Shown here in pieces: positions 1 through 34,981 of a DNA stretch of 35,183 nt. How positions within the stretch are numbered: position 1 is the stretch's first letter; every line of letters begins with the position of its first letter. Position numbers and translations under genes: made by a program. The notes below the pieces were generated by a model, which saw nothing but the letters and a program-made list of their open reading frames with translations, was not told where the DNA came from and searched no databases. Location of the stretch: NCBI GenBank assembly GCA_024641925.1, contig JAHECB010000013.1, forward strand, positions 1 through 35,183, in the 5' to 3' direction. Source of the DNA: Betaproteobacteria bacterium. GTDB taxonomy: Bacteria > Pseudomonadota > Gammaproteobacteria > Burkholderiales > Burkholderiaceae_C.

Positions 1-297
1 CGACTCTCGGGACAGGTCGACGCCCACGAAGTCGCGCAACGCCTGGCTGTCATACAGCGCGTCTTCCAGCGCTTCGTCGGCCAAGGCGTACCACTGTTGC
101 AGGCAGTACATGCGGAGCATTCTGCTGACCCCGATGGGTGGGCGCCCGACGCGGCCGCTATTCGGATACAGCGGCTCGACCATAGCCATCAGCCGAGCCC
201 ACGGCACGACGCGCTCCATCTCGCCCAGAAACTTCTCGCGCCGCGTCCGCTTCTTCTTCATCGCGTACTCAGCACCGGCAAAACTGCGTTGGCTCAT
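1..297 (-). mobile_element. IS5-family transposase, N-terminal part (runs off window edge)
   Basis: Reverse-strand reading MSQRSFAGAEYAMKKKRTRREKFLGEMERVVPWARLMAMVEPLYPNSGRVGRPPIGVSRMLRMYCLQQWYALADEALEDALYDSQALRDFVGVDLSRES matches the IS5 transposase N-terminus. A probable IS end (RC GGGAAACGCTGATTT) lies near 384-385. Confidence 0.85.
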
Positions 298-386
298 GGT
301 CGTGGAGCTCTTAAAGTGAACTACCTCTACAACGCTTCGAGGGCCGCGTTTGACGACTGGCACGGCCGATAAATCAGCGTTTCCCT

Positions 387-910: not shown

Positions 911-1279
911 GTGTCGGCTTGGCCGCAACTGATGCATCGGCGCCGTCAGGTGCACTCCAGCACCGCACGTGCACTCATCACCGTCGAAAGTGCCTTCAAC
1001 CCCTGGGCCATCGGCGTGGTGGCCGGCGCCCTTCAACGACAGCCCAGAAACCGCGCCGAGGCACTTTCAACTGCACAGGCCCTGCAGCGCAATGGCTGGA
1101 ACTTCAGCGTCGGCCTGGGACAGATCAACGTCGGCAACTATGTGCGCCTGGGCTTGACCATTGAATCTGCCTTCGAGCCCTGCACCAACCTGGCCGCCAT
1201 GCAGAGGGTGTTGATCGATTGTTTCGACCGAGCGGCATACACCAGCACGGTGGCGGCCACTCAGATCCGTGCACAGTAG
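911..1279 (+). pseudogene. VirB1-like lytic transglycosylase fragment (T4SS-associated)
   Basis: ALITVESAFNPWAIGVV...ALQRNGWNFSVGLGQINVGNYVRLGLTIESAFEPCTNLAAMQRVL matches the SLT/VirB1 pattern (ES.FNP.AIGV, GQIN..N, FdpC.Nl). The N-terminus is missing. Confidence 0.65.
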
Positions 1280-2034: not shown

Positions 2035-4056
2035 ATGCCTGATAACAGCGGCGGCGATCCTGCGCGCATCGACAGCGCGTCCCAGTCCACTCTCCAGCGG
2101 GGTGGCCCGCCGGATTCACATGCGCTGCCCAAGGGCATGCGCCTGTCCGAGTTCGAGATCGTCAGCCTGCTCGGCGAAGGCGGCTTCAGCGTCGTCTACC
2201 GTGCCTGGGACCATTCGCTCGACCGCGAAGTTGCGCTCAAGGAATACATGCCGGCGTCGCTGGCTGCGCGCGGCGAGCGCACCGCGGTGTACCCGCGCTC
2301 GGAGCGCCTACGCGAAACCTTCGAACTCGGCCTGAAGAGCTTCGTCAACGAGGCCAAGTTGCTGGCCCGGTTCGACCACCCTACTCTGGCCAAGGTGTTC
2401 CGGTTCTGGGAGGCCAACGGTACAGCCTACATGGTCATGCCCGTCTACGAGGGGGTCACGGTGAAGGACACCGTGCGCGCAATGGCGCAGCCGCCCGACG
2501 AAGCCTGGCTGCTCGGCTTGCTGGACCCCTTGACGCAGGCACTGTCCGTGATGCATGCCGAGCAGGTCTACCACCGCGACATCGCACCCGACAACGTGCT
2601 GTTGCTGGCGGGCACCGGCCAGCCCGTGTTGCTGGACTTCGGCGCAGCGCGGCGCGTCATCAGCGACCAGACACAGGCGCTGACTGTGATCCTCAAATCG
2701 GGCTACGCACCGCTGGAGCAGTACGCCGAGGTGCCCGGCATGCGCCAGGGGCCATGGACCGATGTCTATGCATTGGCGGCAGTCGTCTATTGGGCGGCGA
2801 TGGGGCGCACACCGCCGCCTTCGGTCGGGCGCCTGGTGAACGACAGCCACGTGGCGCTGGCCGCCTGTGCGGGCGACCGTTTCAGCGCGCGCTTCACAGC
2901 TGCGGTCGACCGCGCCCTGATCGTGCGGCCGGAATTGCGCACCCGCAGCGTCGAGGACTTCCGCGCCGAATTCGGGCTTGACGAGATGCGCCCCCCGGAC
3001 GCGCCGGCGGCACCGGCCACGCCGGTTGACAGCGATGCGACCGTCATCCGCCCGATGGGTGCCCGCACGCGGGCCGGCAGTGCCACGAGCCCTGCAGCGT
3101 CGCGCACCGGAGTGGAGCCGGCAGCCGCCGCCATGCCGATGCCAGCCGCGCCCGGCCGCAGCGTCTGGATGGCCGCCGCCGTCGCTGGCATTGCGCTGTT
3201 CGGGGGCGCGGCGTGGTGGTGGGCCGGTCGTGATGCGCCGCAACCCGGTCCGAAAGCCGTCGACAAGCCCGTGCTGGCGCAAGAAAGCGCCGTACCGAGC
3301 CCGCAGCAACCGACGGCAGAAAATGTGCGGGCTGCCACGGTGCCGCCCGAAGCCAACAAACCGCCGCTGCCCCCGCTGGCGTCAGCTGCTGAGGCCCTGG
3401 ACCGCCTGCTGTCGCAACAAGACCCACGCGTGGGGCTGAAGCTGCAGCCAACCCAGTTGAAGCTCTCTTTCGTGGCGGCCGCGCCCGGCAACTTCTACCT
3501 CGTCGCGCAACGCCAGGGAGAAAACCAGCTGCGGCTTCTTGCACGGCCCGCCGAGGTCACCGTGCCTGATCGCGCATTGAACGAGGGCACTCGCGGCGAG
3601 CTCGACCTGACCCGGCTCGACCTGGCGCCCGGACACTGGCGCGCCGCTGCGGTGCTCACAAGGCGGCCCCGCGAGCTGGCCGCCGCCGGCTGGCAGGCCG
3701 AGGGGGCGACTTGGCTGCGCCGCTTCGGCGCCGGGGCACCTGACGTAACGCAAGCACTCGGGCCACCGCAATGCGACGCGGGTGCGACCACCTGCGACAG
3801 CGCGTTCGGCGCCGCCGAATGGTCGTTCGACATCGCACCACCCGCCGAGCCGGCACCCGCCCGCCCGGTGCCGGCGCCCAAGCCCGTGCTGCCCAAGCCC
3901 GAGGCCAAGACGCCGGCAAACACAAAGCCCGATCACACGGCCGACGCACCCCGGGCAACGCCGGACCCTGAATGCGCCCGCATCATGAGCCGGCTTTCCC
4001 TGGGCGAAGCCTCGCCAGACCTGTTTGCGCGCATGAAGACGCTGAAGTGCAAGTAA
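2035..4056 (+). CDS. Transmembrane serine/threonine protein kinase with extracytoplasmic C-terminal domain
   Basis: LLGEGGFSVVYRAWD (P-loop), VALKEYMP (Lys), YHRDIAPDNVLL (catalytic loop), LLDFGAARR (DFG); TM segment VWMAAAVAGIALFGGAAWWWAG followed by a 250+ aa C-terminal region. Confidence 0.9.
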   Translation: MPDNSGGDPARIDSASQSTLQRGGPPDSHALPKGMRLSEFEIVSLLGEGGFSVVYRAWDHSLDREVALKEYMPASLAARGERTAVYPRSERLRETFELGLKSFVNEAKLLARFDHPTLAKVFRFWEANGTAYMVMPVYEGVTVKDTVRAMAQPPDEAWLLGLLDPLTQALSVMHAEQVYHRDIAPDNVLLLAGTGQPVLLDFGAARRVISDQTQALTVILKSGYAPLEQYAEVPGMRQGPWTDVYALAAVVYWAAMGRTPPPSVGRLVNDSHVALAACAGDRFSARFTAAVDRALIVRPELRTRSVEDFRAEFGLDEMRPPDAPAAPATPVDSDATVIRPMGARTRAGSATSPAASRTGVEPAAAAMPMPAAPGRSVWMAAAVAGIALFGGAAWWWAGRDAPQPGPKAVDKPVLAQESAVPSPQQPTAENVRAATVPPEANKPPLPPLASAAEALDRLLSQQDPRVGLKLQPTQLKLSFVAAAPGNFYLVAQRQGENQLRLLARPAEVTVPDRALNEGTRGELDLTRLDLAPGHWRAAAVLTRRPRELAAAGWQAEGATWLRRFGAGAPDVTQALGPPQCDAGATTCDSAFGAAEWSFDIAPPAEPAPARPVPAPKPVLPKPEAKTPANTKPDHTADAPRATPDPECARIMSRLSLGEASPDLFARMKTLKCK

Positions 4057-4103
4057 GCGGACTTCTACATTCGTGCGATTGCTTCCTCCACGTAACTATG
4101 GAT

Positions 4104-4125
4104 GCGCCTTTGGGGATTAAGGCGC
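4104..4125. promoter_or_regulatory. Inverted repeat GCGCCTT-N8-AAGGCGC in the intergenic region
   Basis: Perfect 7-bp arms between the kinase stop (4056) and next gene start (4217); no T-run follows. Confidence 0.4.
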
Positions 4126-4158
4126 CTACTGTGTTCTGAGCGGTGATCGCCTGTGGTC

Positions 4159-4174
4159 TGCGGTGGCCACCGCA
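4159..4174. promoter_or_regulatory. 16-bp perfect palindrome TGCGGTGGCCACCGCA, candidate operator
   Basis: Directly readable perfect palindrome about 45 bp upstream of the likely ATG at 4217. Confidence 0.4.
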
Positions 4175-4216
4175 ACCGGGTCGACAGGGTTGAACACTGA
4201 GATGAGGGGATTTCGG

Positions 4217-6478
4217 ATGCGGACGCAATCGAGAGAACGCCGGATCGGCATTTTCAGCGCGCTGGCGGCGGCCTTGTTGCTCGGCTCCTGCGGTGGCGGC
4301 ACTGGCACCAAGGCCGGCAGCGGGACCGAGAAGACCACGCTCACCGTCGAGGCCACCGATCCCGACGGCGACACGCTGCACTACAACTGGCGCGTCACCG
4401 CCGGCGCCATCGACAACCGCGACGCCCGGTCCACCGTGTGGACACTGCCCGCCGGCCCGGGCCTGCATTTCGCCTATGTCACGGTGACCGACGGCAAGGG
4501 CGGCGTTGCTGAACAGCAGTACGCGGTGTCGTCCGACACGCTCGACATCGCGGCCCCGGTGCGCGCGCCAGTGAACCGCACCGCCTTGGCCTTCACCGGG
4601 TCGGAGGGCGGCACCGGACGGCTCAGCTTCGTTCGCACGGGGTACTTTTTTGCCAACCCCAACGGCGGCAACGATGTTGAGCGCTACATCTACATGCCGT
4701 CGGTACGGGTCGAACTGCGCAACGCGGCGAACGAGGTGGTGTTTGCCGGCGAGTCCGACGCCACCGGGCGCCTGGACCTGCCCCAGCTGGCGAACGACGC
4801 TGCGCTGAAGGTCTACTGTGCAGCCGGCCGCGGCATTGCGCTGGCGCCCTGCAATGCGAGCAGGCCGCTGGACGCGCCCGTCGTCACCCCCACGGCGATC
4901 AGCGCCATCTCGAGCACGCTGCAGCCCCCCACGGACCCGGCCCATAACCTGCGGCTGTACGGCCACCTCGGCTTCGCCGACGGCGGCGTGTGCCACCACC
5001 GCAACGAGTTCACCGGCCGGAGCTTGCGCGCCACGGCGCAGCTTCAGCTGATCGACGGCAGCGCCCTCGCGCCGGCGGTCGAGGTCAACCAGTTTGGCGA
5101 CTACGCCATCGACGCCGCGGTGCCGGTGCAGGCCCAGCTGAATTTGCGCGTGCGCTGCGAGGGCATCGACATCCTGCTGCCCGTGCGCGCTGCCACGGGC
5201 GCGGGCTACGATGCCGACACGAAGGTCGAACTGTCAGGGGTGCTGCCGAACAAGCACCCGCGCATCGTCAAGATGGTGGCCAACGGCCCCGAAGGCAGCG
5301 TGCGTGGCGCGGTGGTGGAACTGGCGCTTGCGGGCGCGCCTTCCAACAGCCTGCCAGGCACCAACCGGTTCCTCGCTTTCCGGGGCCTGGACACACGCGC
5401 CGGCGCCTGCCTCTACTACAAATCGTTCGGCGCCGTCCAGGACTGCGACGCCCAGGGCAACATGCTGAACCCGATTTCGCTGGCGGACTGGCGGCGCCAG
5501 CACAAGTTCGGCGCCCATGCCACGGGCAATGTCGAAGTGGCTGCCACCTACGTCAACAAGATGGACCTGAACCTGGTGCGCCGCATGGTGGCCACCCAGT
5601 CGGCGCCCGACAACATCGCCTTTGTCGTCTGCAACCACCCGGGACCAGAGGGCCGCAGCCAGCGAGAGGTGGATCAGGTGATCGACACGGCGCTGGCCGA
5701 CGAGAAGCTGGTCGCCTGCGTGGCCATGGAATGGTCGGTGACGCCGGGCGTCAACGGCAGCAAGCCCTTCACCAAGTTCCTGACCTTCGGGCCGGACGGC
5801 GGGCTGCTGCTGTCGGTGAACCTGGACGGGCGAGGCGAGAAGTACATGCCGGGCACCTGTGTCGCCTGCCATGGCGGCAATCAGTACCGCGGACGCTTCC
5901 CGCAGGCCGGCAACCCGTCGCCCAACCTGGGCTCCGGTTTCCTGCCCTTCGACAACGGCAACTACCTGTTTTCATCGTCCGGCGCGCTGCGCAAGGACAC
6001 GCAGCAGATGTCGATCCACGGCCTGAACAAACTCGTGCGCGAAACCTGGCGCGACAGCGCCAGCAACGCGGTGCGCAACCTGGTCAACGGCTGGTATGCC
6101 AACGACACCCGCAGCGAACTCCAGGAGTCCTACGTGCCGCCGGCGTGGCAGGCGCTGGATGTGACGCGCCCGGGTGCCGCGACCGTGTACCGCGAGATCG
6201 TCGGTGCCTCCTGCCGCACCTGCCATGTCGCCTTCCAGGGTTTCGACTGGGACGCCGAGCCGCAGCGCATCGTCGTGCCCGCAGGCTCGACACAGAAGAA
6301 CGTGCATGTGTGCGGCGGCTCGCCCGATCTGGCGGTCAACGCCAGCATGCCGAACGCCCTGATCTCACGCGATCGCGCCTTCGAGCGCGTGGCCGAAGAA
6401 CCCGCTCTGGCAGCGCTGATGCAGCAGTTTTTCGGCTGCACCAAGGCGCTGCCCGACCCCGCGTACACGCGCCAATGA
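4217..6478 (+). CDS. Exported lipoprotein with PKD/cadherin-like N-terminal domain and two c-type heme motifs
   Basis: Lipobox ALLLGSC; PKD-like VEATDPDGDTLHYNWRVTAGAID...VTVTDGKGG; CVACH and CRTCH motifs. ATG 4217 has upstream GAGGGGA; the tool start at 4163 is GTG. Confidence 0.75.
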   Translation: MRTQSRERRIGIFSALAAALLLGSCGGGTGTKAGSGTEKTTLTVEATDPDGDTLHYNWRVTAGAIDNRDARSTVWTLPAGPGLHFAYVTVTDGKGGVAEQQYAVSSDTLDIAAPVRAPVNRTALAFTGSEGGTGRLSFVRTGYFFANPNGGNDVERYIYMPSVRVELRNAANEVVFAGESDATGRLDLPQLANDAALKVYCAAGRGIALAPCNASRPLDAPVVTPTAISAISSTLQPPTDPAHNLRLYGHLGFADGGVCHHRNEFTGRSLRATAQLQLIDGSALAPAVEVNQFGDYAIDAAVPVQAQLNLRVRCEGIDILLPVRAATGAGYDADTKVELSGVLPNKHPRIVKMVANGPEGSVRGAVVELALAGAPSNSLPGTNRFLAFRGLDTRAGACLYYKSFGAVQDCDAQGNMLNPISLADWRRQHKFGAHATGNVEVAATYVNKMDLNLVRRMVATQSAPDNIAFVVCNHPGPEGRSQREVDQVIDTALADEKLVACVAMEWSVTPGVNGSKPFTKFLTFGPDGGLLLSVNLDGRGEKYMPGTCVACHGGNQYRGRFPQAGNPSPNLGSGFLPFDNGNYLFSSSGALRKDTQQMSIHGLNKLVRETWRDSASNAVRNLVNGWYANDTRSELQESYVPPAWQALDVTRPGAATVYREIVGASCRTCHVAFQGFDWDAEPQRIVVPAGSTQKNVHVCGGSPDLAVNASMPNALISRDRAFERVAEEPALAALMQQFFGCTKALPDPAYTRQ

Positions 6479-6510
6479 GCGGCCAAGCCAACCGCGCCGA
6501 GGAAACCTCC

Positions 6511-7929
6511 ATGATCAATCCGCGCCATCGCCAACGCCATCGCACCGGCGCCTGGCTGCTCTGCCTGGGCCTGCTCGGCGCCTGCGCCGGTGTCGAGCGG
6601 CCAATGCAGGCACCGACCGCCCCGGCGGCTGCAGCGGCCACGCCCAAAGCGGCGCCCGTGCCCGCCGCAGCACCCCAGGCCGCACCCATGTCGCCACAAC
6701 CGGCCGCAGTCCGGGCCGCAGCACCCACCGCCGCCCCGGTCGCGCGGCCTGTGGCCCAGGCGCCTGTCGCCACCACGCCCAGGACGCAGACCCCGGCGCC
6801 GCCCGCGCCGGAGCGCGAATTTGTCGCCCCGCCGCCGATCGAGTTCAAGGCCGCGGTCAGGCGTGCCGGCGCCCAGTTGCTGGCCGACGCCGGCGGCGTG
6901 CTCGGCGCCGAGGCGCGCGTGCTGGTGATCGACCCGCTGATCGACGCCAACACCGGCGGCCAGACCGTCAGCACCGTCAGCATGGGCGACCAGCTCGAGG
7001 GCCTGGTGAAAGCGCGCGCCGACGGCTGGAAGGTGCAGCCGCTGACACGCGAGGCCCTGGCGGGCCGACCCCTGCTGCTGATCGGCACGCTGACACCGGT
7101 GACGGTGGAACGTTCCATCGACACCGTACCCGACGCCTTTCGGGTCTGGCTGACGCTGATCGACCTGCGCACCGGCACCGTGGTGGCCAAGAGCCTGGAC
7201 CGCGCCACCACGGCATCGGTCGACCCGACGCCGCTCAAGTACTACAGCGACAGCCCGACCTGGCACAAGGACAAGACGGTTGCCGGCTACATCAACTCCT
7301 GCCAGGTCAAGACCCGCATCGGCGACCCGGCGGACCCGGACTATCTGGCGCGCCTGCCCGCAGCGGCGGTCGTCAACGAGGCTGCCATCGCCTATGACGA
7401 CGGCAAACTCGCGCAGGCCAATCAGCTTTACAAGGAAGCCAGCAAGCTGGCCGACGCGGGCGACCTGCGTGTGCTCAACGGCTTGTACCTGACGAACTGG
7501 CAGCTCGGCCAGCGCGACGCCGCGCGCGACGCCTTCGACCGCCTCGTCGCTTCCGGCCTGCACGAAGAGAAGCTGCCGCTGAAGTTGCTGTTCAAACCCG
7601 GCGGCACCAACTTCAACAGCATCGGCGACCTGGCCCAGCAGTACGACATGTGGATCAAGTCGCTGGCCCAGGTGACCGGCCGGGTGGCGGTTTGTGTGCG
7701 TGTCGTCGGGCACACCAGCCGCACCGGCAGTGCGCGGCTGAACGAGACCCTGTCACGCAAGCGCGCCGAAGCCGTGGCCGACATGCTGGTGCGCCAGAAC
7801 CGTGCCCTGTCCGCCCGCCTCAGCATGGCCGGCGTCGGCTCGCGCGAGGCCCTGGTCGGCCTGGGCACCGACGACCTGCGCGATGCGCTGGACCGGCGGG
7901 TGGAGTTTCGGGTCGTGGATTGCGTTTGA
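6511..7929 (+). CDS. OmpA-family lipoprotein with Ala/Pro-rich linker
   Basis: Start ATG 6511 preceded by GAGGAAAC; lipobox LLGAC; C-terminal VVGHTSRTGSARLNETLSRKRAEAVADMLV...RRVEFRVVDC matches the OmpA C-terminal domain. Confidence 0.75.
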   Translation: MINPRHRQRHRTGAWLLCLGLLGACAGVERPMQAPTAPAAAAATPKAAPVPAAAPQAAPMSPQPAAVRAAAPTAAPVARPVAQAPVATTPRTQTPAPPAPEREFVAPPPIEFKAAVRRAGAQLLADAGGVLGAEARVLVIDPLIDANTGGQTVSTVSMGDQLEGLVKARADGWKVQPLTREALAGRPLLLIGTLTPVTVERSIDTVPDAFRVWLTLIDLRTGTVVAKSLDRATTASVDPTPLKYYSDSPTWHKDKTVAGYINSCQVKTRIGDPADPDYLARLPAAAVVNEAAIAYDDGKLAQANQLYKEASKLADAGDLRVLNGLYLTNWQLGQRDAARDAFDRLVASGLHEEKLPLKLLFKPGGTNFNSIGDLAQQYDMWIKSLAQVTGRVAVCVRVVGHTSRTGSARLNETLSRKRAEAVADMLVRQNRALSARLSMAGVGSREALVGLGTDDLRDALDRRVEFRVVDCV

Positions 7930-7973
7930 CTCTCACTGCACTTGTGCTCGACCCAGTTGCTCAGGAGCCCATC

Positions 7974-10900
7974 ATGTCGAATCACTTGACGCCAAATGGC
8001 GGCCGGTCGCTGCGCAGGGCTGGGCTGACCCTGGCGCTAGCGGTGGGCGCTGTCAGTGCGGTGCAGGCCCAGACTGAACCACCCTCTGGCGCTTGCGTGG
8101 CACCGGTGCAATGGACCACCACCAACTACGGCGTGGGCACCTGCGCAGCTTGTCACGGCGGCACGGGCAACCCGCCCGCCATCGCCGCCAGTACCGGTGC
8201 CGGTTCAACGACGCTCGGGCTGTTCGAATCGTGGCTGGGCACATCGCCCCCGGACAACGATGCCACGCGGCTCTCTCGCCTGAGAACACGCATCACCGGC
8301 GTCAACGCGTCGATGACCGGCCTGGCTGGCGCTGCCGACGCAGACGCACAGGCGGTGGTGAACTACCTGACGTGCGTGCGCGACCTGCGGGTCGACACGG
8401 GGAGCCTGACCCTCACGCCGGCCGCCGCCATCAACCAGGCGCGCACCGCCACTTTCGTGATTGAAAATCCGCGCAGCGAGTCGGTGGCGTTCACCACCAC
8501 CGTGGCCGCCAACACGCAAGACTTTCCACAATCCGGTCTTTCCAGCACCTGCGGCGGCACCGTCCCGGCCGGCACGCCGGGCACGCCGGGCTCGTGCACC
8601 GTAACCGTCACGTTCAAGCCCCAGCCGGGCACCCCGACGACCCGGACGGGCACGCTCGCTGTTGCCTTCCTGACGCCGGTGTCCGCCGTGTTGCCCCATT
8701 CGCGGTCGATCACCCTGACCGGAACGGTCCTGCCGCCGGTCTACCAGTTCACTGCCGCCGCCGGACCGTTTTCGGCGCGACTGAACCGGTCCGCCGACCT
8801 GTTGGTAGGCACGCTGAAAAACACGGGCAATGCCAGCTTGGCCGTTTCCAGCATCACACGCGCCAGCGGATCGACGGCCTTCACGCAGTCCCCGGCGGAC
8901 ACGGCGCGCCCCTTGGCCTGCAGCAGCACGCCGCTGCTGGACGGCAACGCCAGCTGTGAGGTCTGGCTGCGATTCACACCCACCGCGGCAAACTTGACCA
9001 CAGCGCCCGACACCTACGCCGCCACCTTCACTGTGGCGCACAACGCGGCCGGCAGCCCCGGCAGCGTCAGCGTCACGGCCACAGGCCCGCAGCCGCTGAT
9101 CAGCCCGACCACGTTGTCGCTGCTGTTCGGTGACGTGCAGTCGGGCGTGGCCACGCCGAAAACCGCGCAGTTCAGCGGCGTAGGCACCATGCCCCTGACT
9201 TTCACCGCTGACCCGAAACTGCCCGGCGCGCTCAGCGGCACCAATCCGGCTGACTTCAGCGTCGGCACCAGCTGCAACAGCGGCGTCAACGCCACCTTGG
9301 CATCGGGGTCACCGTGCACGGTCACGGTCACTTTCACGCCACCGTTGAACGCACCGGTGAACGTAGAGCGCAGCGCGACACTCACCATCAACACCGACGC
9401 CGACAACAACGCCGGCGCGCTGGCCATCACCTTGCGCGGCACCCCGGTTGCGCTGCCCTCGCCGACGGTCACTTTCCCGACCAGTGCGTTTGCCAGCACA
9501 GCCATCGGTTTTGCCACGACAACCACAGCCACGGTGACCCTCAACAACCCGCGCACACGGGCGGTCAACTACGCCGTCACGTCTACCCGTGCGGCGGACT
9601 TTGCCGTCGTCGGCGGCACCTGCCCCGGCACCGCGGGGCAGGTGGCGGGCGGCGGTGGATCCTGCACCCTGCTGTACCGGTTCCAACCCGCAGCACCTTC
9701 GCCGGGCGATACCGACGACCGCAGCACGACCTTGACCGTGTCGTTCACCGGCACGGGCGGCGACGCCAACCCGGCCGCGCAGTCAGGCACGCTAAGCGGT
9801 CGTGCAGTGCTGCCGCTGACGCTGTCGACCGCCGTCCTGAGCCCGTCGTCGATCGTCAACACCGCCACCACGGCCACGCTGCTGCTGACCAACAACACAC
9901 CGTCGCCATTGACACCCACCGGGCTGCCCGTCACCGGTGCGGCGCTGGCCGACTACAGCGTCGACGCGGCCAGCGCCTGCCGTGCCGGCCTGGCCATCAA
10001 CGCCAGTCAGAGCTGCGCGCTGACGCTGCGCTTCCTGCCCACGCTGGAAGGCCTGCGCGCGGCAAGCCTGGGTATCGAGCACGCCGCCTACGGCAGCCCG
10101 CAAGCGGTTGCACTGCAGGGCACTGGGCAGCCGGTGCCCCAGGGCGAGGCCGCGTTCTCGGCACAAGCGCTGAACTTCGGTGACCAGCAACGGGGCAGCA
10201 CCAGCAGTGCCTTGACGGTGTCGCTGACCAACACCGGCACGGCGCCCTTGACCGTGAGCGCCCTGACGCTGGGCGGCGCCCATTTCGCCGACTTCAGCCG
10301 CAGCGGCAGCTGCGTCATCGGCTCGCCGCTGGCCATCGGCGCGCGCTGCGAAATGCTGTTGCAGTTCACCCCTGCGCAGCTGGGTGCACGCAACGCCACG
10401 CTGCGGGTGCAGTCCAACGCCCGGGTCAACGCGGACGTCACGATCGCGCTGTCGGGCAACGGCATCCCGGTGCCGGTGCCAGTGGTAGGGCTGTCGCCGC
10501 TGCCGCTGAACTTCGGCGACCAGGCGGTCGGAGGCCTTTACCCGACACGCAACCTGCAGCTCAAGAACACCGGCACGGCCGACCTGCTGTTGGCCAGCGT
10601 GACGGTGCAGGGTGCAGGCTTCAGCCTGGTACCGGGTTCGTCGTGCGGCACGACGCTGGCGGCGGGCGCGACCTGCGACATCCCGGTGGCTTTCGGTGCC
10701 TCGTCGGCGGGCGCTGATTACAGCGGTACGGTGACGCTGGCCAGCAATGCGGCCGACTCGCCGCACAGTGCGCAACTGGTGGGCAAAGGCGCCCTCGCTG
10801 CAGCGCCGGTGCTGGCCTGGGAGCCGGCATCGGCAACGCTGAACTTTGGCGAAGTGGCCGTGGGCACCGCCTCGGCGCCCCAGCCGTTGACGCTGGCCAA

Positions 10901-11597
10901 CCGCGGCCCGGGCGGCGTGAAACTGACCTTGCTGAACGCGGTCGGCCTGGACCGTGCGAACTTTGGCCATGTCGACGGGGCTGACGCCTGCCAGATCGGG
11001 GTCGTGCTGTTCGAAGGCACAACCTGCCGCGTCTACGTGGTGTTTGCGCCGGTACAGTCCGGCGTCAAGCAGGTGGCGCTGCAACTGGCTGCCGGCAACA
11101 GCCTGCCACCGGCCTTGACGCTGCAGGGCACCGGCATCGGCGGGCCCACCGCCGCGATGTCCACCTCGGTCGACGCGCTGTCGTTCGGCACGCTGGCGGC
11201 CGGTTCGCGCTCGGCACCGCAGTCCATCACGATCACCAGCAGCGGGGCCGCGTTGCGCATGACGGCGCTGCGGGTCACGGGCCCGTTTGCGCTCAGCGGC
11301 GGCAGCTGCCCCGCCCTGCCGTTCGATCTGCCCGCCGACAGCGCCTGCAGCGTCGACATCACGTACCAGCCGCAGGCTGAAGGCGCATCAACAGGCTTGC
11401 TGCTGATCGGTGAAGACAGTGATCCGGCGCAGCGCAAGTTGCAGCTGAGCGGCACGGCGAGAAAGGTCGATGCGCTCAGCGGTGGGGGCTGCACGATCGT
11501 GAACCGGCCAACGCTGACCGACCCCACGCTGTGGCTGCTGGCGTTGGGGGCCGCGCTGGCGCTGTGGCGGCGCGAGTCGGCGCGCCGGCGCCGCTGA
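7974..11597 (+). CDS. Choice-of-anchor-D-type repeat protein with N-terminal CxxCH motif and JDVT-CTERM-like sorting domain
   Basis: Signal peptide ending AVSAVQAQ; CAACHGG near the N-terminus; about nine LNFGD..VG...L.NTG...F.P-type repeats; C-terminus GGGCTIVNRPTLTDPTLWLLALGAALALWRRESARRRR. Confidence 0.8.
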   Translation: MSNHLTPNGGRSLRRAGLTLALAVGAVSAVQAQTEPPSGACVAPVQWTTTNYGVGTCAACHGGTGNPPAIAASTGAGSTTLGLFESWLGTSPPDNDATRLSRLRTRITGVNASMTGLAGAADADAQAVVNYLTCVRDLRVDTGSLTLTPAAAINQARTATFVIENPRSESVAFTTTVAANTQDFPQSGLSSTCGGTVPAGTPGTPGSCTVTVTFKPQPGTPTTRTGTLAVAFLTPVSAVLPHSRSITLTGTVLPPVYQFTAAAGPFSARLNRSADLLVGTLKNTGNASLAVSSITRASGSTAFTQSPADTARPLACSSTPLLDGNASCEVWLRFTPTAANLTTAPDTYAATFTVAHNAAGSPGSVSVTATGPQPLISPTTLSLLFGDVQSGVATPKTAQFSGVGTMPLTFTADPKLPGALSGTNPADFSVGTSCNSGVNATLASGSPCTVTVTFTPPLNAPVNVERSATLTINTDADNNAGALAITLRGTPVALPSPTVTFPTSAFASTAIGFATTTTATVTLNNPRTRAVNYAVTSTRAADFAVVGGTCPGTAGQVAGGGGSCTLLYRFQPAAPSPGDTDDRSTTLTVSFTGTGGDANPAAQSGTLSGRAVLPLTLSTAVLSPSSIVNTATTATLLLTNNTPSPLTPTGLPVTGAALADYSVDAASACRAGLAINASQSCALTLRFLPTLEGLRAASLGIEHAAYGSPQAVALQGTGQPVPQGEAAFSAQALNFGDQQRGSTSSALTVSLTNTGTAPLTVSALTLGGAHFADFSRSGSCVIGSPLAIGARCEMLLQFTPAQLGARNATLRVQSNARVNADVTIALSGNGIPVPVPVVGLSPLPLNFGDQAVGGLYPTRNLQLKNTGTADLLLASVTVQGAGFSLVPGSSCGTTLAAGATCDIPVAFGASSAGADYSGTVTLASNAADSPHSAQLVGKGALAAAPVLAWEPASATLNFGEVAVGTASAPQPLTLANRGPGGVKLTLLNAVGLDRANFGHVDGADACQIGVVLFEGTTCRVYVVFAPVQSGVKQVALQLAAGNSLPPALTLQGTGIGGPTAAMSTSVDALSFGTLAAGSRSAPQSITITSSGAALRMTALRVTGPFALSGGSCPALPFDLPADSACSVDITYQPQAEGASTGLLLIGEDSDPAQRKLQLSGTARKVDALSGGGCTIVNRPTLTDPTLWLLALGAALALWRRESARRRR

Positions 11598-11599
11598 TC

Positions 11600-12007
11600 A
11601 TGCGCACCGAACCGCACACGGTCGTGCCGGTGGCTGCCACCGTACTGCTGGCAGCGGCGGCGCTGTCCAGCGCCAGCGCTGCTTCGGCCGCGCCCAGCCT
11701 GGTCGTCATGCTGTTGCTGGTCGCTCCGCTGCTGGAAGAAACCGTGTTCCGCGTCGGCCTGCAAGACGCCCTGATGCGGTCGCGCCACGCGCTGTCGCCG
11801 ACGGCAGCAGCGCTGGCGCTGGCGCTGGTGGTCGCGCTGGTGCATGTCTGGGCACGGCAGGACCTGCTGGCACTGGGCGTGGTGGTGCCAGCAGCGGCCA
11901 TCGGCCTGCTCTACAACCGCTGGCGCCGGCTGCGCTGGTGCGTGCTGGCGCACGCCGCCATGAACGCGCTGTGGATCCTGTTCACCACGTCGACGACGGT
12001 CAGCTGA
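11600..12007 (+). CDS. mrtJ: CPBP-type glutamic intramembrane protease, likely JDVT-CTERM-system MrtJ
   Basis: Small multi-TM protein with EETVFR (EExxxR), VALVH and HAAMN (HxxxN) motifs, starting 2 bp after the JDVT-CTERM-like substrate stop. Confidence 0.75.
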   Translation: MRTEPHTVVPVAATVLLAAAALSSASAASAAPSLVVMLLLVAPLLEETVFRVGLQDALMRSRHALSPTAAALALALVVALVHVWARQDLLALGVVVPAAAIGLLYNRWRRLRWCVLAHAAMNALWILFTTSTTVS

Positions 12008-12010
12008 GCC

Positions 12011-13060
12011 ATGACCCATTCAAAAAACAACCCGGGGGAACACATGGTCACCGCGATGCAAAGGGCACGCCACGCGTGCGTAGCGGTCGGTCTGGGTCTG
12101 ACAGCGCTGGGCGCACAGGCCCAGGCCGACTACGGCTACTACGGCGTGCTGGACCTGTCTTACGGCCGCTTTGAGCCCAGCGGCCTCTACCGCGAGCACC
12201 GATTCAACAGCAACTCGATGACCGCCACCTTTGGCGGCGTCAACTTCAGCTATGGGCTGGAAAACGGCTGGACGCCCGGCGTCACGCTGGAAGCCTTCTA
12301 CCGGCTGCAGGACGCGCAGGGCGGCCGCAGCAACCGGGACCCGCTGCTGTCGCGCAATGCCTTCGTGTCGCTGGCGCATCGCGAGTACGGCACCTTGCGT
12401 GCCGGCCGCCTGCAGACCACGATGTTCAACCTGACGACGCGTTTCAATGCGCTGGGCAACTCGGTGGCCTTCTCGCCGGCGGTGCGCCATGTCTTCACCG
12501 CCGGCAACCTGATCGGGGTGCAGGGCGACTTCTACTGGAACCAGGCGCTCAGCTACACCAGCCCCAACCTGGAAGGTGTGACGACGACGCTGATGCTCGC
12601 GCGCGGTGAGCAGCAGGACCCGGGCGATCTGGCGGGGCTGAGCGTGCTGTTCTCGCGCGGCCTGCTGGCGCTGTCGGGGTCGGTGCAGCGTGTCCATGTG
12701 GACGACGGCATCAAGGACCCGACGAAAGAAACGGCCTGGCAGCTCAGCGGGTCCTACAACGTCGGACTGGTGCAGGTCTTTGCCATGGCTTTCGGCACCC
12801 ATGACAGAGGCTTGGACGTACGCAGCCACACCCTCTCGGCCGGCGCCAGCGCGCCGCTCGGGCCCGGAACCTTGTCGCTGCAGATGGCGTACTCGCAGGC
12901 CGACGGCCCGGCGGTGGACCGCCGCCAGACCACCACCAGCGCGGCCTACGTGTATGCCTGGGACAGTCTGACCGATCTCTACGTGGTCATGATGGACGAC
13001 CGCGCCAGCGGTCAGACACGCGGTGTCTCGATGGCCAGCGGGGTGCGTTGGCGCTTCTAG
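12011..13060 (+). CDS. Gram-negative porin, Burkholderiales type
   Basis: Signal peptide (GLTALGAQAQA), DYGYYGVLDLSYGR start, alternating beta-strand pattern, terminal GVRWRF. True start may be ATG 12044 or 12056. Confidence 0.75.
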   Translation: MTHSKNNPGEHMVTAMQRARHACVAVGLGLTALGAQAQADYGYYGVLDLSYGRFEPSGLYREHRFNSNSMTATFGGVNFSYGLENGWTPGVTLEAFYRLQDAQGGRSNRDPLLSRNAFVSLAHREYGTLRAGRLQTTMFNLTTRFNALGNSVAFSPAVRHVFTAGNLIGVQGDFYWNQALSYTSPNLEGVTTTLMLARGEQQDPGDLAGLSVLFSRGLLALSGSVQRVHVDDGIKDPTKETAWQLSGSYNVGLVQVFAMAFGTHDRGLDVRSHTLSAGASAPLGPGTLSLQMAYSQADGPAVDRRQTTTSAAYVYAWDSLTDLYVVMMDDRASGQTRGVSMASGVRWRF

Positions 13061-13126
13061 GCGACCGCCGGTGGGGCCAGCGCTGGTGTCAGTGCAACCG
13101 GTACTTTTCATCTTCCGGGGTTTGTC

Positions 13127-13816
13127 ATGATTGAAACCAGTGCCGCCGACTTTGCCGCCCTCACCCGCGACGTGTACCGCAGCAGCCCCAAGGGGTCGAA
13201 GGTCTACGCCTGGTCGCGGCAGAACTTTCTGGGCGACCCGACCAACGGGTTCTTCGCCGCCGCGTACCAGACGCCCCGCACCGGAAAACTGGTGGTGGCG
13301 TTCCGAGGCACGCAGCCAACCAGCGCAGTCGACTGGGCGAACAACCTGGCCAACACGACCGGTTGGTCCAGCGGCCAGTGGGACAGCCAGCTCAATACGG
13401 CGCTGGCCTACTTTCGTGCCGTCCGCAGCATCTACGCCGCAACCGACGTCGCCGTCTGCGGCCACTCCCTCGGCGGGTTTCTGGCCTCCATGGTCGCCAT
13501 CAAGGAGCGCGTACTCGGCGTCACCTTCAATCCGGCGCCGCTGGGCCTGTCCGGGCTGGGCACCCGGCTGCAAAGCGGGGCGCGCGACGCACCTCGCATC
13601 GTCAACTTCCGCCTGAAGGGCGACCTGGTCTCCGGGCTACGTCGGTACAACATCGGTCCGGTCATCGAACTCTCGCACTCGCGCGCCGAGCTGTGGGCCC
13701 GCGCGCCCGGGATCATGGGCGACCTGGACCCGATCATGCACGACATGGGGCTGATGGAAGAGGCCGTGCTGCTTCACCGGCATTCGGGCCTTGCACCAGA
13801 ACGCTGGGCACGTTGA
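13127..13816 (+). CDS. Lipase-like alpha/beta hydrolase
   Basis: VVAFRGTQPTS and nucleophile motif VAVCGHSLGGFLASMVA; no obvious signal peptide. Confidence 0.75.
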   Translation: MIETSAADFAALTRDVYRSSPKGSKVYAWSRQNFLGDPTNGFFAAAYQTPRTGKLVVAFRGTQPTSAVDWANNLANTTGWSSGQWDSQLNTALAYFRAVRSIYAATDVAVCGHSLGGFLASMVAIKERVLGVTFNPAPLGLSGLGTRLQSGARDAPRIVNFRLKGDLVSGLRRYNIGPVIELSHSRAELWARAPGIMGDLDPIMHDMGLMEEAVLLHRHSGLAPERWAR

Positions 13817-14212: not shown

Positions 14213-15332
14213 TATAGATAAGGCCCACAAATAGATTGAACTTTGTGGGTCTGAGCGGGTCAGACTGAGCATGGAAAAAGACGATGCCAGAAGACTGAGC
14301 CCGAGTGAGCAACACGAGCGACGCAGACAAGTCATTCGAGCGCACAAGCGGGGGCGAACCCGCACGCAGATTGCCCAAGAAGTCGGCCTGAGCTACACAT
14401 CTGTGAGCAAGACCATTGCGCGCTACGAGGAAGAAGGTCTTGCTGCATTGGCGCCGCGCACACGCGGTCGTCGAAGCGGAGAAGATCGCGCGCTGACCGA
14501 GCTGCAAGAGCAGACCATCCAGCGCACCATCTGCGACAAGCGACCTGAACAATTGAAGATGGAGTTTGCGCTGTGGAGCCGCGCCGCCGTGATGCAACTC
14601 ATTGAGCGCGAATTCGGTGTTGTGCTTCATGTGCGCTCGGTGGGCAAGTACCTCGCACGCTGGGGCTTCACGCCGCAAAAGCCGATCAAGCGCGCGTACG
14701 AGCAATCCCCTGCAGCAGTCAAAGATTGGCTCGACAACCAGTACCCGCAGATCGCCAAGCGCGCAAAGGCCGAGGGCGGCGAGGTTCACTGGGGCGACGA
14801 GACTGCGCTGGTGAACACCGATGTTCGGGACCGTAGCTTCGCGCCCAAAGGCAAGACGCCCGTGACGATGGCCATCGGTGGGACACGCCAGAAGCGATCG
14901 ATGATTGCCACGGTCACCAACCAGGGAAAGGCGCGCTGGATGATCATCGACGGCGCCTTCAATCACGAACGGCTGATCGAATTTTTCGAGTCGTTGGTCA
15001 AAGACACGGGCAAGAAGATCTTCTTGGTCCTGGACAACCTGGGCGTTCATCACTGCAAGCCAGTGAAGGCCTGGTTGCTAGAAAACGCCACCAAGATGGA
15101 GGTGTTCTACCTGCCCAGTTACAGCCCTGAGTTGAACCCCGAAGAACGACTGAACGCAGACCTCAAGCACGTCATCAGAAGCAAAGTTCCGGTGCGCACG
15201 AAAGCCAAACTACAGGCTGCCGCTGATGATCACAGGACGGCGCTGCAGGCCAAACCTGAACGCGTTAAGACCTTCTTCCAAGAGCCGTTTGTGAAGTATG
15301 CGGCCTGAAACTGTTTGAGGGCCGAATCAATA
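14213..15332 (+). mobile_element. Complete IS630-family element
   Basis: Ends TATAGATAAGGCCCACAAATAG / RC TATTGATTCGGCCCTCAAACAG are imperfect terminal inverted repeats, with TA at both outer ends. Confidence 0.85.
14271..15308 (+). CDS. IS630-family transposase
   Basis: N-terminal HTH (RTQIAQEVGLSYTSVSKTIARY), DDE domain with HWGDETAL, LVLDNLGVHHCKPV, LPSYSPELNPEERLNADLK. Confidence 0.95.
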   Translation: MEKDDARRLSPSEQHERRRQVIRAHKRGRTRTQIAQEVGLSYTSVSKTIARYEEEGLAALAPRTRGRRSGEDRALTELQEQTIQRTICDKRPEQLKMEFALWSRAAVMQLIEREFGVVLHVRSVGKYLARWGFTPQKPIKRAYEQSPAAVKDWLDNQYPQIAKRAKAEGGEVHWGDETALVNTDVRDRSFAPKGKTPVTMAIGGTRQKRSMIATVTNQGKARWMIIDGAFNHERLIEFFESLVKDTGKKIFLVLDNLGVHHCKPVKAWLLENATKMEVFYLPSYSPELNPEERLNADLKHVIRSKVPVRTKAKLQAAADDHRTALQAKPERVKTFFQEPFVKYAA

Positions 15333-33378: not shown

Positions 33379-33861
33379 ATGCATGCGAAGCACACCCGCC
33401 GTCGGGCCCTCATGACAACGCTGGCTTCGCTGGCCACTTTGGGAATGTCCTGGTCAGCGTCGGCGCGCAAGGCGTCCGACGCCCCGCTGGTTGAGGTCTG
33501 GAAGAGCCCGACCTGCGGCTGCTGCAAGGACTGGGTGACCCACCTGGAAGCCAACGGCTTTCGAGTCGTGGTCCACGACACCGGTAACACCGCGGTGCGA
33601 ACCCGACTGGGCATCGACCTGAAGTACGCCAGCTGCCACACGGCCCAAGTCGGCGGCTACGCCATCGAAGGCCATGTTCCAGCGACCGACATCAAACGCT
33701 TGCTGAAGCAGGCGCCCGTCGCCACCGGCTTGGCGGTGCCGGGCATGCCAGTGGGCTCGCCCGGCATGGACGGTGCCGCCTATGCCGGGCGCCGCGATCC
33801 CTATGACGTGCTGCTGATTGCCAAGGACGGCAGCGCCACTGTGTTCCAACCCCACCGTTGA
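33379..33861 (+). CDS. DUF411-family (copper-associated) periplasmic protein
   Basis: VEVWKSPTCGCCKDWVTHLEANGFRVVVHDT..., LKYASCHTAQVGGYAIEGHVPATDIKRLL, GMPVGSPGMD; RBS AAGGAG. Confidence 0.92.
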   Translation: MHAKHTRRRALMTTLASLATLGMSWSASARKASDAPLVEVWKSPTCGCCKDWVTHLEANGFRVVVHDTGNTAVRTRLGIDLKYASCHTAQVGGYAIEGHVPATDIKRLLKQAPVATGLAVPGMPVGSPGMDGAAYAGRRDPYDVLLIAKDGSATVFQPHR

Positions 33862-34241
33862 AGGAAGAAACCAGGAAGACGATCAAGACCCTGTTCATCG
33901 CCATCGCGTTTGCCGCCCTTGGGGTCGCCCTTGTGGCCGCCGTGATGCCGGCCCTGGCGCAGACCACGATGGACCATAGCAAGATGGCTGACATGAAGAT
34001 GGCCGACACCGCAGCCGTCGGCATGAGCGACGGCGAAGTGCGCAAGATCGACAAGGCGCAGAGCAAGCTCACGTTGAAGCACGGCAAGATCAAGAGCCTG
34101 AACATGCCGGTTATGACCATGGTCTTTACCGCAAAGGACAAGGCCATGCTCGACGGCGTCAAGGTCGGCGACAAGGTCAGATTCCAGGCGACCAACGAAG
34201 GTGGCAAGCTGGTCGTCGTCGAACTGGCGCCAGCGATATGA
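33858..34241 (+). CDS. CusF-like periplasmic copper-binding protein
   Basis: GEVRKIDKAQSKLTLKHGKIKSLNMPVMTMVFTAKDKAMLDGVKVGDKVRFQA is typical of CusF/CopK-like metal-binding repeats; TTG start overlaps the upstream stop. Confidence 0.88.
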   Translation: MKEETRKTIKTLFIAIAFAALGVALVAAVMPALAQTTMDHSKMADMKMADTAAVGMSDGEVRKIDKAQSKLTLKHGKIKSLNMPVMTMVFTAKDKAMLDGVKVGDKVRFQATNEGGKLVVVELAPAI

Positions 34242-34313: not shown

Positions 34314-34463
34314 ATGGTGAAGCGCAGTGTTCTGTCGCGACTGCTGCTCGCTTTGGGTCTTTGCATGGGCAGCGCCGGTGCGGCGTTGGCCCACACAAAC
34401 CTGGTGGCATCGGTACCCAGCGACGGTCAGGCCGTCACTGGGGCGACGAGACTGCGCTGGTGA
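34314..34463 (+). pseudogene. copC: CopC-type copper-resistance protein, truncated by an IS630 fragment
   Basis: MVKRSVLSRLLLALGLCMGSAGAALAHTNLVASVPSDGQAV then IS-derived TGATRLRW*; IS identity starts at 34435. Confidence 0.7.
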
Positions 34464-34981
34464 ACACCGATGTTCGGGGCCGTAGCTTCGCGCCCAAAGG
34501 CAAGACGCCCGTGACGATGGCCATCGGTGGGACACGCCAGAAGCGATCGATGATTGCCACGGTCACCAACCAGGGAAAGGCGCGCTGGATGATCATCGAC
34601 GGCGCCTTCAATCACGAACGGCTGATCGAATTTTTCGAGTCGTTGGTCAAAGACACGGGCAAGAAGATCTTCTTGGTCCTGGACAACCTGGGCGTTCATC
34701 ACTGCAAGCCAGTGAAGGCCTGGTTGCTAGAAAACGCCACCAAGATGGAGGTGTTCTACCGGCCCAGTTACAGCCCTGAGTTGAACCCCGAAGAACGCTT
34801 GAACGCAGACCTCAAGCACGTCATCAGCAGCAAAGTTCCGGTGCGCACGAAAGCCAAACTGCAGGCTGCCGCTGATGATCACAGGACGGCGCTGCAGGCC
34901 AAACCTGAACGCGTTAAGACCTTCTTCCAAGAGCCGTTTGTGAAGTATGCGACCTGAAACTGTTTGAGGGCCGAATCAATA
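34435..34981 (+). mobile_element. 5'-truncated second copy of the IS630 element
   Basis: Collinear, without indels, with 14786-15332, nearly identical and sharing the same right end. Confidence 0.93.

Follow-up and report, generated by a model that had tools for sequence, protein, structure and literature searches.

Do the genes that follow one another along one strand of a betaproteobacterial contig belong to a single system, and what would such a system do? The question is raised by a window of 35,183 nucleotides (contig JAHECB010000013.1, assembly GCA_024641925.1, Betaproteobacteria bacterium), the window being the whole stretch of DNA analysed. A first-pass annotation had grouped seven co-directional genes of this window into a candidate envelope system. 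All seven are present on the + strand and belong to the families that had been named, with start sites refined here from reading frame and upstream context. Sequence comparison across genomes indicates that six of them are a real conserved cassette encoding a transmembrane Ser/Thr protein kinase (K), a lipoprotein with two CxxCH motifs (HL), a lipoprotein with an OmpA C-terminal domain, a protein (J) that joins a putative cytochrome c domain to immunoglobulin (Ig)-like repeats and a JDVT-CTERM tail, the protease MrtJ and a general porin; K, HL and J are working labels. The reading favored here, with a probability of roughly 0.6, is that the cassette produces a surface-tethered cytochrome c sorted by MrtJ, together with a heme lipoprotein partner and helper genes.

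Evidence for the cassette depends on the gene that is used as the anchor. A neighborhood survey anchored on MrtJ spoke against the grouping. MrtJ exceeded the curated NF033192 cut-off in 16 of 399 genomes of the order (Burkholderiales), the window's genome included, and no homologue of K, HL or the OmpA lipoprotein was found within up to ~10 kb of MrtJ in the other 15 genomes or at three loci just below the cut-off, some of the contigs being short. The outcome was reversed when HL served as the anchor. Within the order set HL had a full-length match in 1 of 399 genomes, the window's own, and a scan of 85,462 species with exact short patterns returned at least 12 further loci, with HL identities of 49–56%, from Piscinibacter, Massilia, Zoogloea, Variovorax, Roseateles, and other Burkholderiales. 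The loci around HL were read by tblastn and codon-usage gene calls. HL, the OmpA lipoprotein, J and the porin occur together in all 13 genomes, the window counted, and the order HL-OmpA-J-(MrtJ)-porin is kept (in the L087 genome the cassette is split between two contigs, L087 and L093). MrtJ directly follows J in 12 of the 13 genomes, L086 being the exception, and only the Variovorax locus L085 has no K nearby. The co-occurrence of the kinase, HL and OmpA genes with the JDVT-CTERM/MrtJ pair, which the first-pass grouping calls for, is thus borne out by the survey anchored on HL. The flanking genes vary from genus to genus, so the conservation concerns the cassette and not the whole region. A search for a plasmid origin gave no match in plasmids.

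The spacing of the genes is tight. In the window the gaps between HL, the OmpA lipoprotein, J, MrtJ and the porin measure 32, 44, 2 and 36 bp, and the gap between K and HL 160 bp. MrtJ starts 2 bp past the stop codon of J in the window, and elsewhere the end of J overlaps the start of MrtJ, with a 4-bp overlap in L080, L081, L082, L085, and L089 and a 25-bp overlap in two other genomes. Pairwise distances among HL, the OmpA lipoprotein and the porin are correlated (r 0.79–0.88) and those of MrtJ moderately so, shared ancestry not being removed from these values. The 15 other MrtJ genomes that carry none of K, HL or OmpA nearby imply that the JDVT-CTERM/MrtJ pair is wider than the cassette; from these comparisons the pair is best regarded as a wider two-gene unit that has been recruited here, and the cassette as one specialized use of it.

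The center of the cassette is J (7974..11597, +), which contains nine choice-of-anchor-D repeats (NF012200) followed by a JDVT-CTERM tail (GGGCTIVNRPTLTDPTLWLLALGAALALWRRESARRRR; NF033191, 34.9 bits, cut-off 27). Its N-terminal domain carries the heme motif CAACH at residues 57–61, a Met 53 residues downstream and a C-terminal helix. CX2CH (CX4CH in KLAP34, L096) and, 30–65 residues farther on, a Met, mostly followed by a terminal helix, are found in each of the 19 tabulated J proteins; alignments of the N-terminus show no invariant residues besides the two Cys and the His of the heme motif. Nearly all matches of a J-domain profile to PDB sequences were class I cytochromes c (best E 2.8e-9). 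Pfam Cytochrome_CBB3 or Cytochrom_C gave weak matches in 11–12 of 17 J proteins; the window copy stays below the gathering scores for Cytochrom_C (18.4 vs 21.3 bits) and CBB3 (17.9 vs 27 bits). On these grounds the N-terminal domain of J is assigned to the class I cytochromes c. The first-pass annotation had spoken of two exported proteins with CxxCH motifs. The motifs are confirmed in both, and that of J belongs to a predicted cytochrome c domain rather than standing as an isolated CxxCH.

MrtJ (11600..12007, +; NF033192, 79.6 bits, cut-off 75) is the glutamic-type intramembrane protease of the JDVT-CTERM system, of the CPBP/Rce1-like kind, with an EExxR motif and two His positions that are invariant in the alignment. 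It is the single Rce1-like match found in the window's genome, which holds one MrtJ and one JDVT-CTERM protein over the cut-off; each cassette genome likewise has one JDVT protein over the cut-off. With no JDVT-CTERM protein besides J in the window's genome, MrtJ looks dedicated to J. A GGC tail is present in the J protein of each of the 13 cassettes. Across a wider set, 16 J proteins with the JDVT-type GGC tail (L046 included) all come from MrtJ genomes, in two of which MrtJ lies just below the cut-off, and four related J proteins without the tail Cys all come from genomes without MrtJ. Such a split would have a probability of 1 in 4845 if the two features were independent, but the genomes are related, and it is therefore taken as supporting evidence only. 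Concerning export and heme attachment, the type II secretin GspD and CcmF both exceed the cut-off in the window's genome, GspD doing so in 18 of 19 genomes tested, and the MrtJ loci L031, L032, L033, and L035 sit among type II secretion (gsp) genes. J is probably exported by type II secretion. A separate observation at L035 is a gene on the – strand (L035:10309-11940) for a subtilase-like protease with a JDVT-like tail, beside MrtJ in the type II secretion operon.

HL (4217..6478, +) has a lipobox, LLGSC-GGG, and N-terminal Ig/PKD-like beta domains. Its heme motifs are CVACH at 548–552 and CRTCH (within SCRTCH) at 666–670, with MPN later in the sequence. The lipobox Cys, both CxxCH motifs and ten further Cys are invariant across 13 aligned genomes. 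Searches of Pfam and NCBIfam gave no full-length family match for HL, only weak Ig/PKD-like and cytochrome matches. Its AlphaFold2 model is of low confidence, with a predicted local distance difference test score (pLDDT) of 64, and the Foldseek matches are weak, with generic Ig folds, and come from adhesins. The OmpA lipoprotein (6511..7929, +; PF00691, 36.4 bits, cut-off 27.2) matches OmpA-like domains in profile searches of the PDB and is predicted to bind peptidoglycan; the protein shows 59–82% identity among genomes, and its N-terminal domain is conserved but of no recognized fold. The porin (12044..13060, +; PF13609, Porin_4, 91.9 bits, cut-off 27) has 338 residues and is orthologous across the cassettes, with 51–62% identity to the window copy in the 13-genome alignment.

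The kinase K (2035..4056, +; PF00069, 81.5 bits, cut-off 31.7) is judged to be the weakest member of the cassette. Its catalytic residues (K69, D182 of the HRD motif, N187 and D201 of the DFG motif) are invariant in 11 aligned kinases, as are two Cys, C647 and C672, in the extreme C-terminal tail. K is mostly upstream of the cassette; it follows the porin in L082 and lies on the opposite strand in L083 and L084, and its reading frame appears interrupted in L080 and L086. The K-OmpA pair also exists as a separate module, a Ser/Thr kinase adjoining 7 of the 11 OmpA paralogues that were examined from the genus. Pairs of a Ser/Thr kinase and an OmpA lipoprotein that are independent of JDVT-CTERM/MrtJ were observed in the same genus at L129-L134 and L138.

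Two other gene arrangements bear on the function of the cassette. At L095, in the window's genus, a kinase, MrtJ and J are followed by genes for a redoxin, DUF4266, DUF3570, ApbE, and DsbD, and at L094, in the same genus, J accompanies most of this set. In PMC8238504 the set is described as a thioredoxin/flavin system for extracytosolic electron transfer. Large autotransporter-barrel proteins with Ig repeats are found in another family, next to HL-like lipoproteins that contain three CxxCH motifs. These loci suggest that the pairing of a heme lipoprotein with a heme/Ig-repeat protein recurs with a different anchor. Both kinds of relatives support a predicted redox role for the cassette. Individual genes of interest include L046:577-3354 (–), a family relative in which a cytochrome-Ig-JDVT J protein is fused in one frame to a thioredoxin after the JDVT tail, and L126:2071-6912 and L127:8482-13257, two complete autotransporters that combine an N-terminal CxxCH with seven Ig repeats; the third of these large autotransporter-barrel proteins is cut by a contig edge.

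From these elements a mechanism can be proposed. A signal peptide would export J, and heme c would be attached to it in the periplasm. The JDVT-CTERM helix would hold J in the inner membrane until MrtJ cuts beside the invariant, probably lipidated, Cys. Folded holo-J would then cross the outer membrane, most likely via type II secretion, and be anchored in the outer leaflet, with the heme domain at the top of an Ig-like stalk. HL may be an outer-membrane lipoprotein that serves as the electron partner of J, and the OmpA lipoprotein would link the assembly to peptidoglycan. The porin is a presumed outer-membrane channel. K may tune expression or activity, perhaps by sensing the redox state of the envelope through its extracytoplasmic tail with two Cys.

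Several findings weigh against this surface-tethered cytochrome. The N-terminal domains of J are divergent (15–37% identity to the window copy), and the AlphaFold2 model of the domain is poor (pLDDT 64), with two Foldseek matches to c-type cytochrome structures at E>1. Given this model and the Pfam scores below threshold, the cytochrome assignment rests on profile and motif evidence. The fold of HL is poorly resolved by modeling as well. In L086 MrtJ is not located between J and the porin, and a 68.7-bit match lies on another contig. K shifts in position and strand, has no copy close to the cassette in Variovorax, and shows the distances least correlated with those of the other genes. In the autotransporter relatives an N-terminal heme domain would have to cross the barrel, and the side on which it ends is uncertain. 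Finally, HL has two heme motifs and J one, and a total of three is few for long-distance conduction. A broader and more tentative proposal, at clearly less than even odds, is that the cassette is a surface electron-transfer or redox-sensing apparatus of an undescribed class, in which a mono-heme cytochrome on an Ig stalk works with a heme lipoprotein, the anchors are interchangeable (JDVT-CTERM/MrtJ or an autotransporter barrel) and a membrane Ser/Thr kinase exerts control. The surface redox apparatus of the first-pass annotation draws support, as a putative function, from the predicted cytochrome domain and the related loci, and co-transcription and regulation by the kinase are presumed.

Other explanations of the same genes have to be considered. 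J consists mostly of Ig-like repeats with one heme motif per protein, the N-terminal half of HL is Ig/PKD-like with weak structural matches to adhesins, and the kinase close by has two conserved Cys near its C-terminus. J could on these grounds be mainly a surface adhesin or signaling stalk whose heme is a gas or redox sensor, the signal being read by HL and K. This is rather unlikely, however, as proteins of the J type also accompany the DsbD/ApbE/DUF3570 electron-transfer genes, and a pure adhesin would have no need for the two invariant CxxCH motifs of HL. It is improbable that HL and J make up an extracytoplasmic heme enzyme, for instance a peroxidase, or an enzyme that oxidatively degrades a compound imported by the porin, kept near its substrate by the surface tether. 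The C-terminal half of HL is large and Cys-rich and holds two heme motifs, and the distances of the porin are among those that track HL best; but searches of Pfam, NCBIfam and PDB sequences found no enzyme domain in HL, di-heme peroxidase included, and J is tied to electron-transfer genes in an arrangement that has neither HL nor the porin.

With its porin next to a heme lipoprotein and to a heme protein predicted at the outer surface, the cassette also recalls the porin-cytochrome conduits of the MtrAB and PioAB kind, which carry electrons across the outer membrane. In such conduits many hemes fill the barrel, whereas the porin of the cassette is an ordinary Porin_4 of small size and HL has two CxxCH motifs. 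Having only three heme motifs, the cassette does not qualify as a long-distance conduit like MtrAB; membership of the porin-cytochrome conduits was rejected on heme count and barrel type, and this explanation is very improbable. That the genes are chance neighbors, grouped without functional meaning, is hardly credible. Most MrtJ loci elsewhere lack K, HL and OmpA, and transposase genes flank the region, but 13 genomes from several genera keep the genes together, at ~50% identity and with differing flanks. For HL, the OmpA lipoprotein, J, MrtJ and the porin, chance association is already refuted by these comparisons.

The seventh gene of the original grouping (13127..13816, +) encodes a lipase-like alpha/beta hydrolase (PF01764, Lipase_3, 27.3 bits, cut-off 22). 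Its membership was not borne out, since 0 of 12 related loci carry a homologue, and it was dropped from the cassette. Upstream of K, the left edge of the contig carries a transposase-like fragment (window 1-363), followed by a fragment with an SLT domain, lytic transglycosylase-like (window 950-1279). Downstream, an intact IS630-type transposase gene (window 14271-15308) and a 5'-truncated copy (34393-34957) are near-identical across ~560 nt, lie in direct orientation 19.6 kb apart and bracket a tripartite ATP-independent periplasmic (TRAP) transporter/CoA-transferase/aldehyde dehydrogenase/pyrroloquinoline quinone (PQQ) region; DUF411 and CusF-type copper-binding genes adjoin the truncated copy (window 33412-34241). 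In the Zoogloea loci L083, L084, and L091 the cassette is flanked by type VI secretion system (T6SS)-like genes and by a set resembling MinCDE; both were recognized by eye, on the basis of sequence starts and clusters of homology. A general link to the T6SS was rejected, as the T6SS-like neighbors are confined to these three loci.

From sequence, MrtJ/JDVT-CTERM is known as a pair of just protease and substrate, without an assigned job, and the cassette supplies a testable client, a putative cytochrome c, and partner genes. It may also offer a compact case for how Gram-negative bacteria display heme proteins on their surface, and it raises the question of whether an intramembrane CPBP protease can serve a single redox protein. 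In addition, it places a Ser/Thr kinase beside the sorting of a putative surface heme protein. Judging from the autotransporter relatives, one and the same functional unit may have been built with different anchors.

Among described systems, the cassette can be compared with several. Porin and heme proteins at the outer membrane are features that it would share with MtrAB, PioAB and MtoAB, from which it differs in its far fewer heme motifs, its small general porin and its tether by a C-terminal sorting signal. K resembles PASTA/PknB-type and T6SS-associated kinases in being a membrane Ser/Thr kinase with an extracytoplasmic C-terminal part, the latter also through the T6SS-like neighbors in Zoogloea. 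Unlike the PASTA/PknB kinases it has no PASTA match and scores 94.7 bits against NF033483, far under the cut-off of 450. The DsbD-DUF3570-DUF4266-ApbE flavinylation system (PMC8238504) is related through L094 and L095, which join J to that set, and L095 also joins MrtJ and a kinase. Family searches of the window cassette found no ApbE, DUF3570, DUF4266 or thioredoxin-like genes, and the passages of PMC8238504 consulted make no mention of J, MrtJ or a kinase. The sister system of MYXO-CTERM and the myxosortase MrtX (PMC11980579) shows the same combination of an invariant Cys, a transmembrane helix, an Arg-rich tail and a CPBP protease, with lipidation and type II secretion proposed; cleavage and surface display dependent on type II secretion have been supported for it. 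Myxosortase serves dozens of substrates in Myxococcota, whereas here one protease appears to serve one substrate.

The closest relative is the MrtJ/JDVT-CTERM pair itself (NF033192/NF033191), described as a bare two-gene neighborhood that is sporadic in beta-proteobacteria (PMC11980579). Both proteins of the window are over the curated cut-offs, the protease adjoins a single substrate and the distribution is sporadic, as in the described pair; here, in contrast, the pair sits inside a conserved six-gene cassette, and the substrate has a putative cytochrome c domain. In the literature searched, which left out most subscription papers, no paper besides PMC11980579 names JDVT-CTERM and none pairs choice-of-anchor D repeats with a cytochrome. 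The idea of an undescribed envelope system thus stands for a conserved set whose combination was not found in the papers searched, and has to be narrowed because the lipase is out and both the JDVT-CTERM/MrtJ and the kinase-OmpA pairs are wider modules. Overall, the new part appears to be the cytochrome client and the six-gene cassette that surrounds a known MrtJ/JDVT-CTERM pair.

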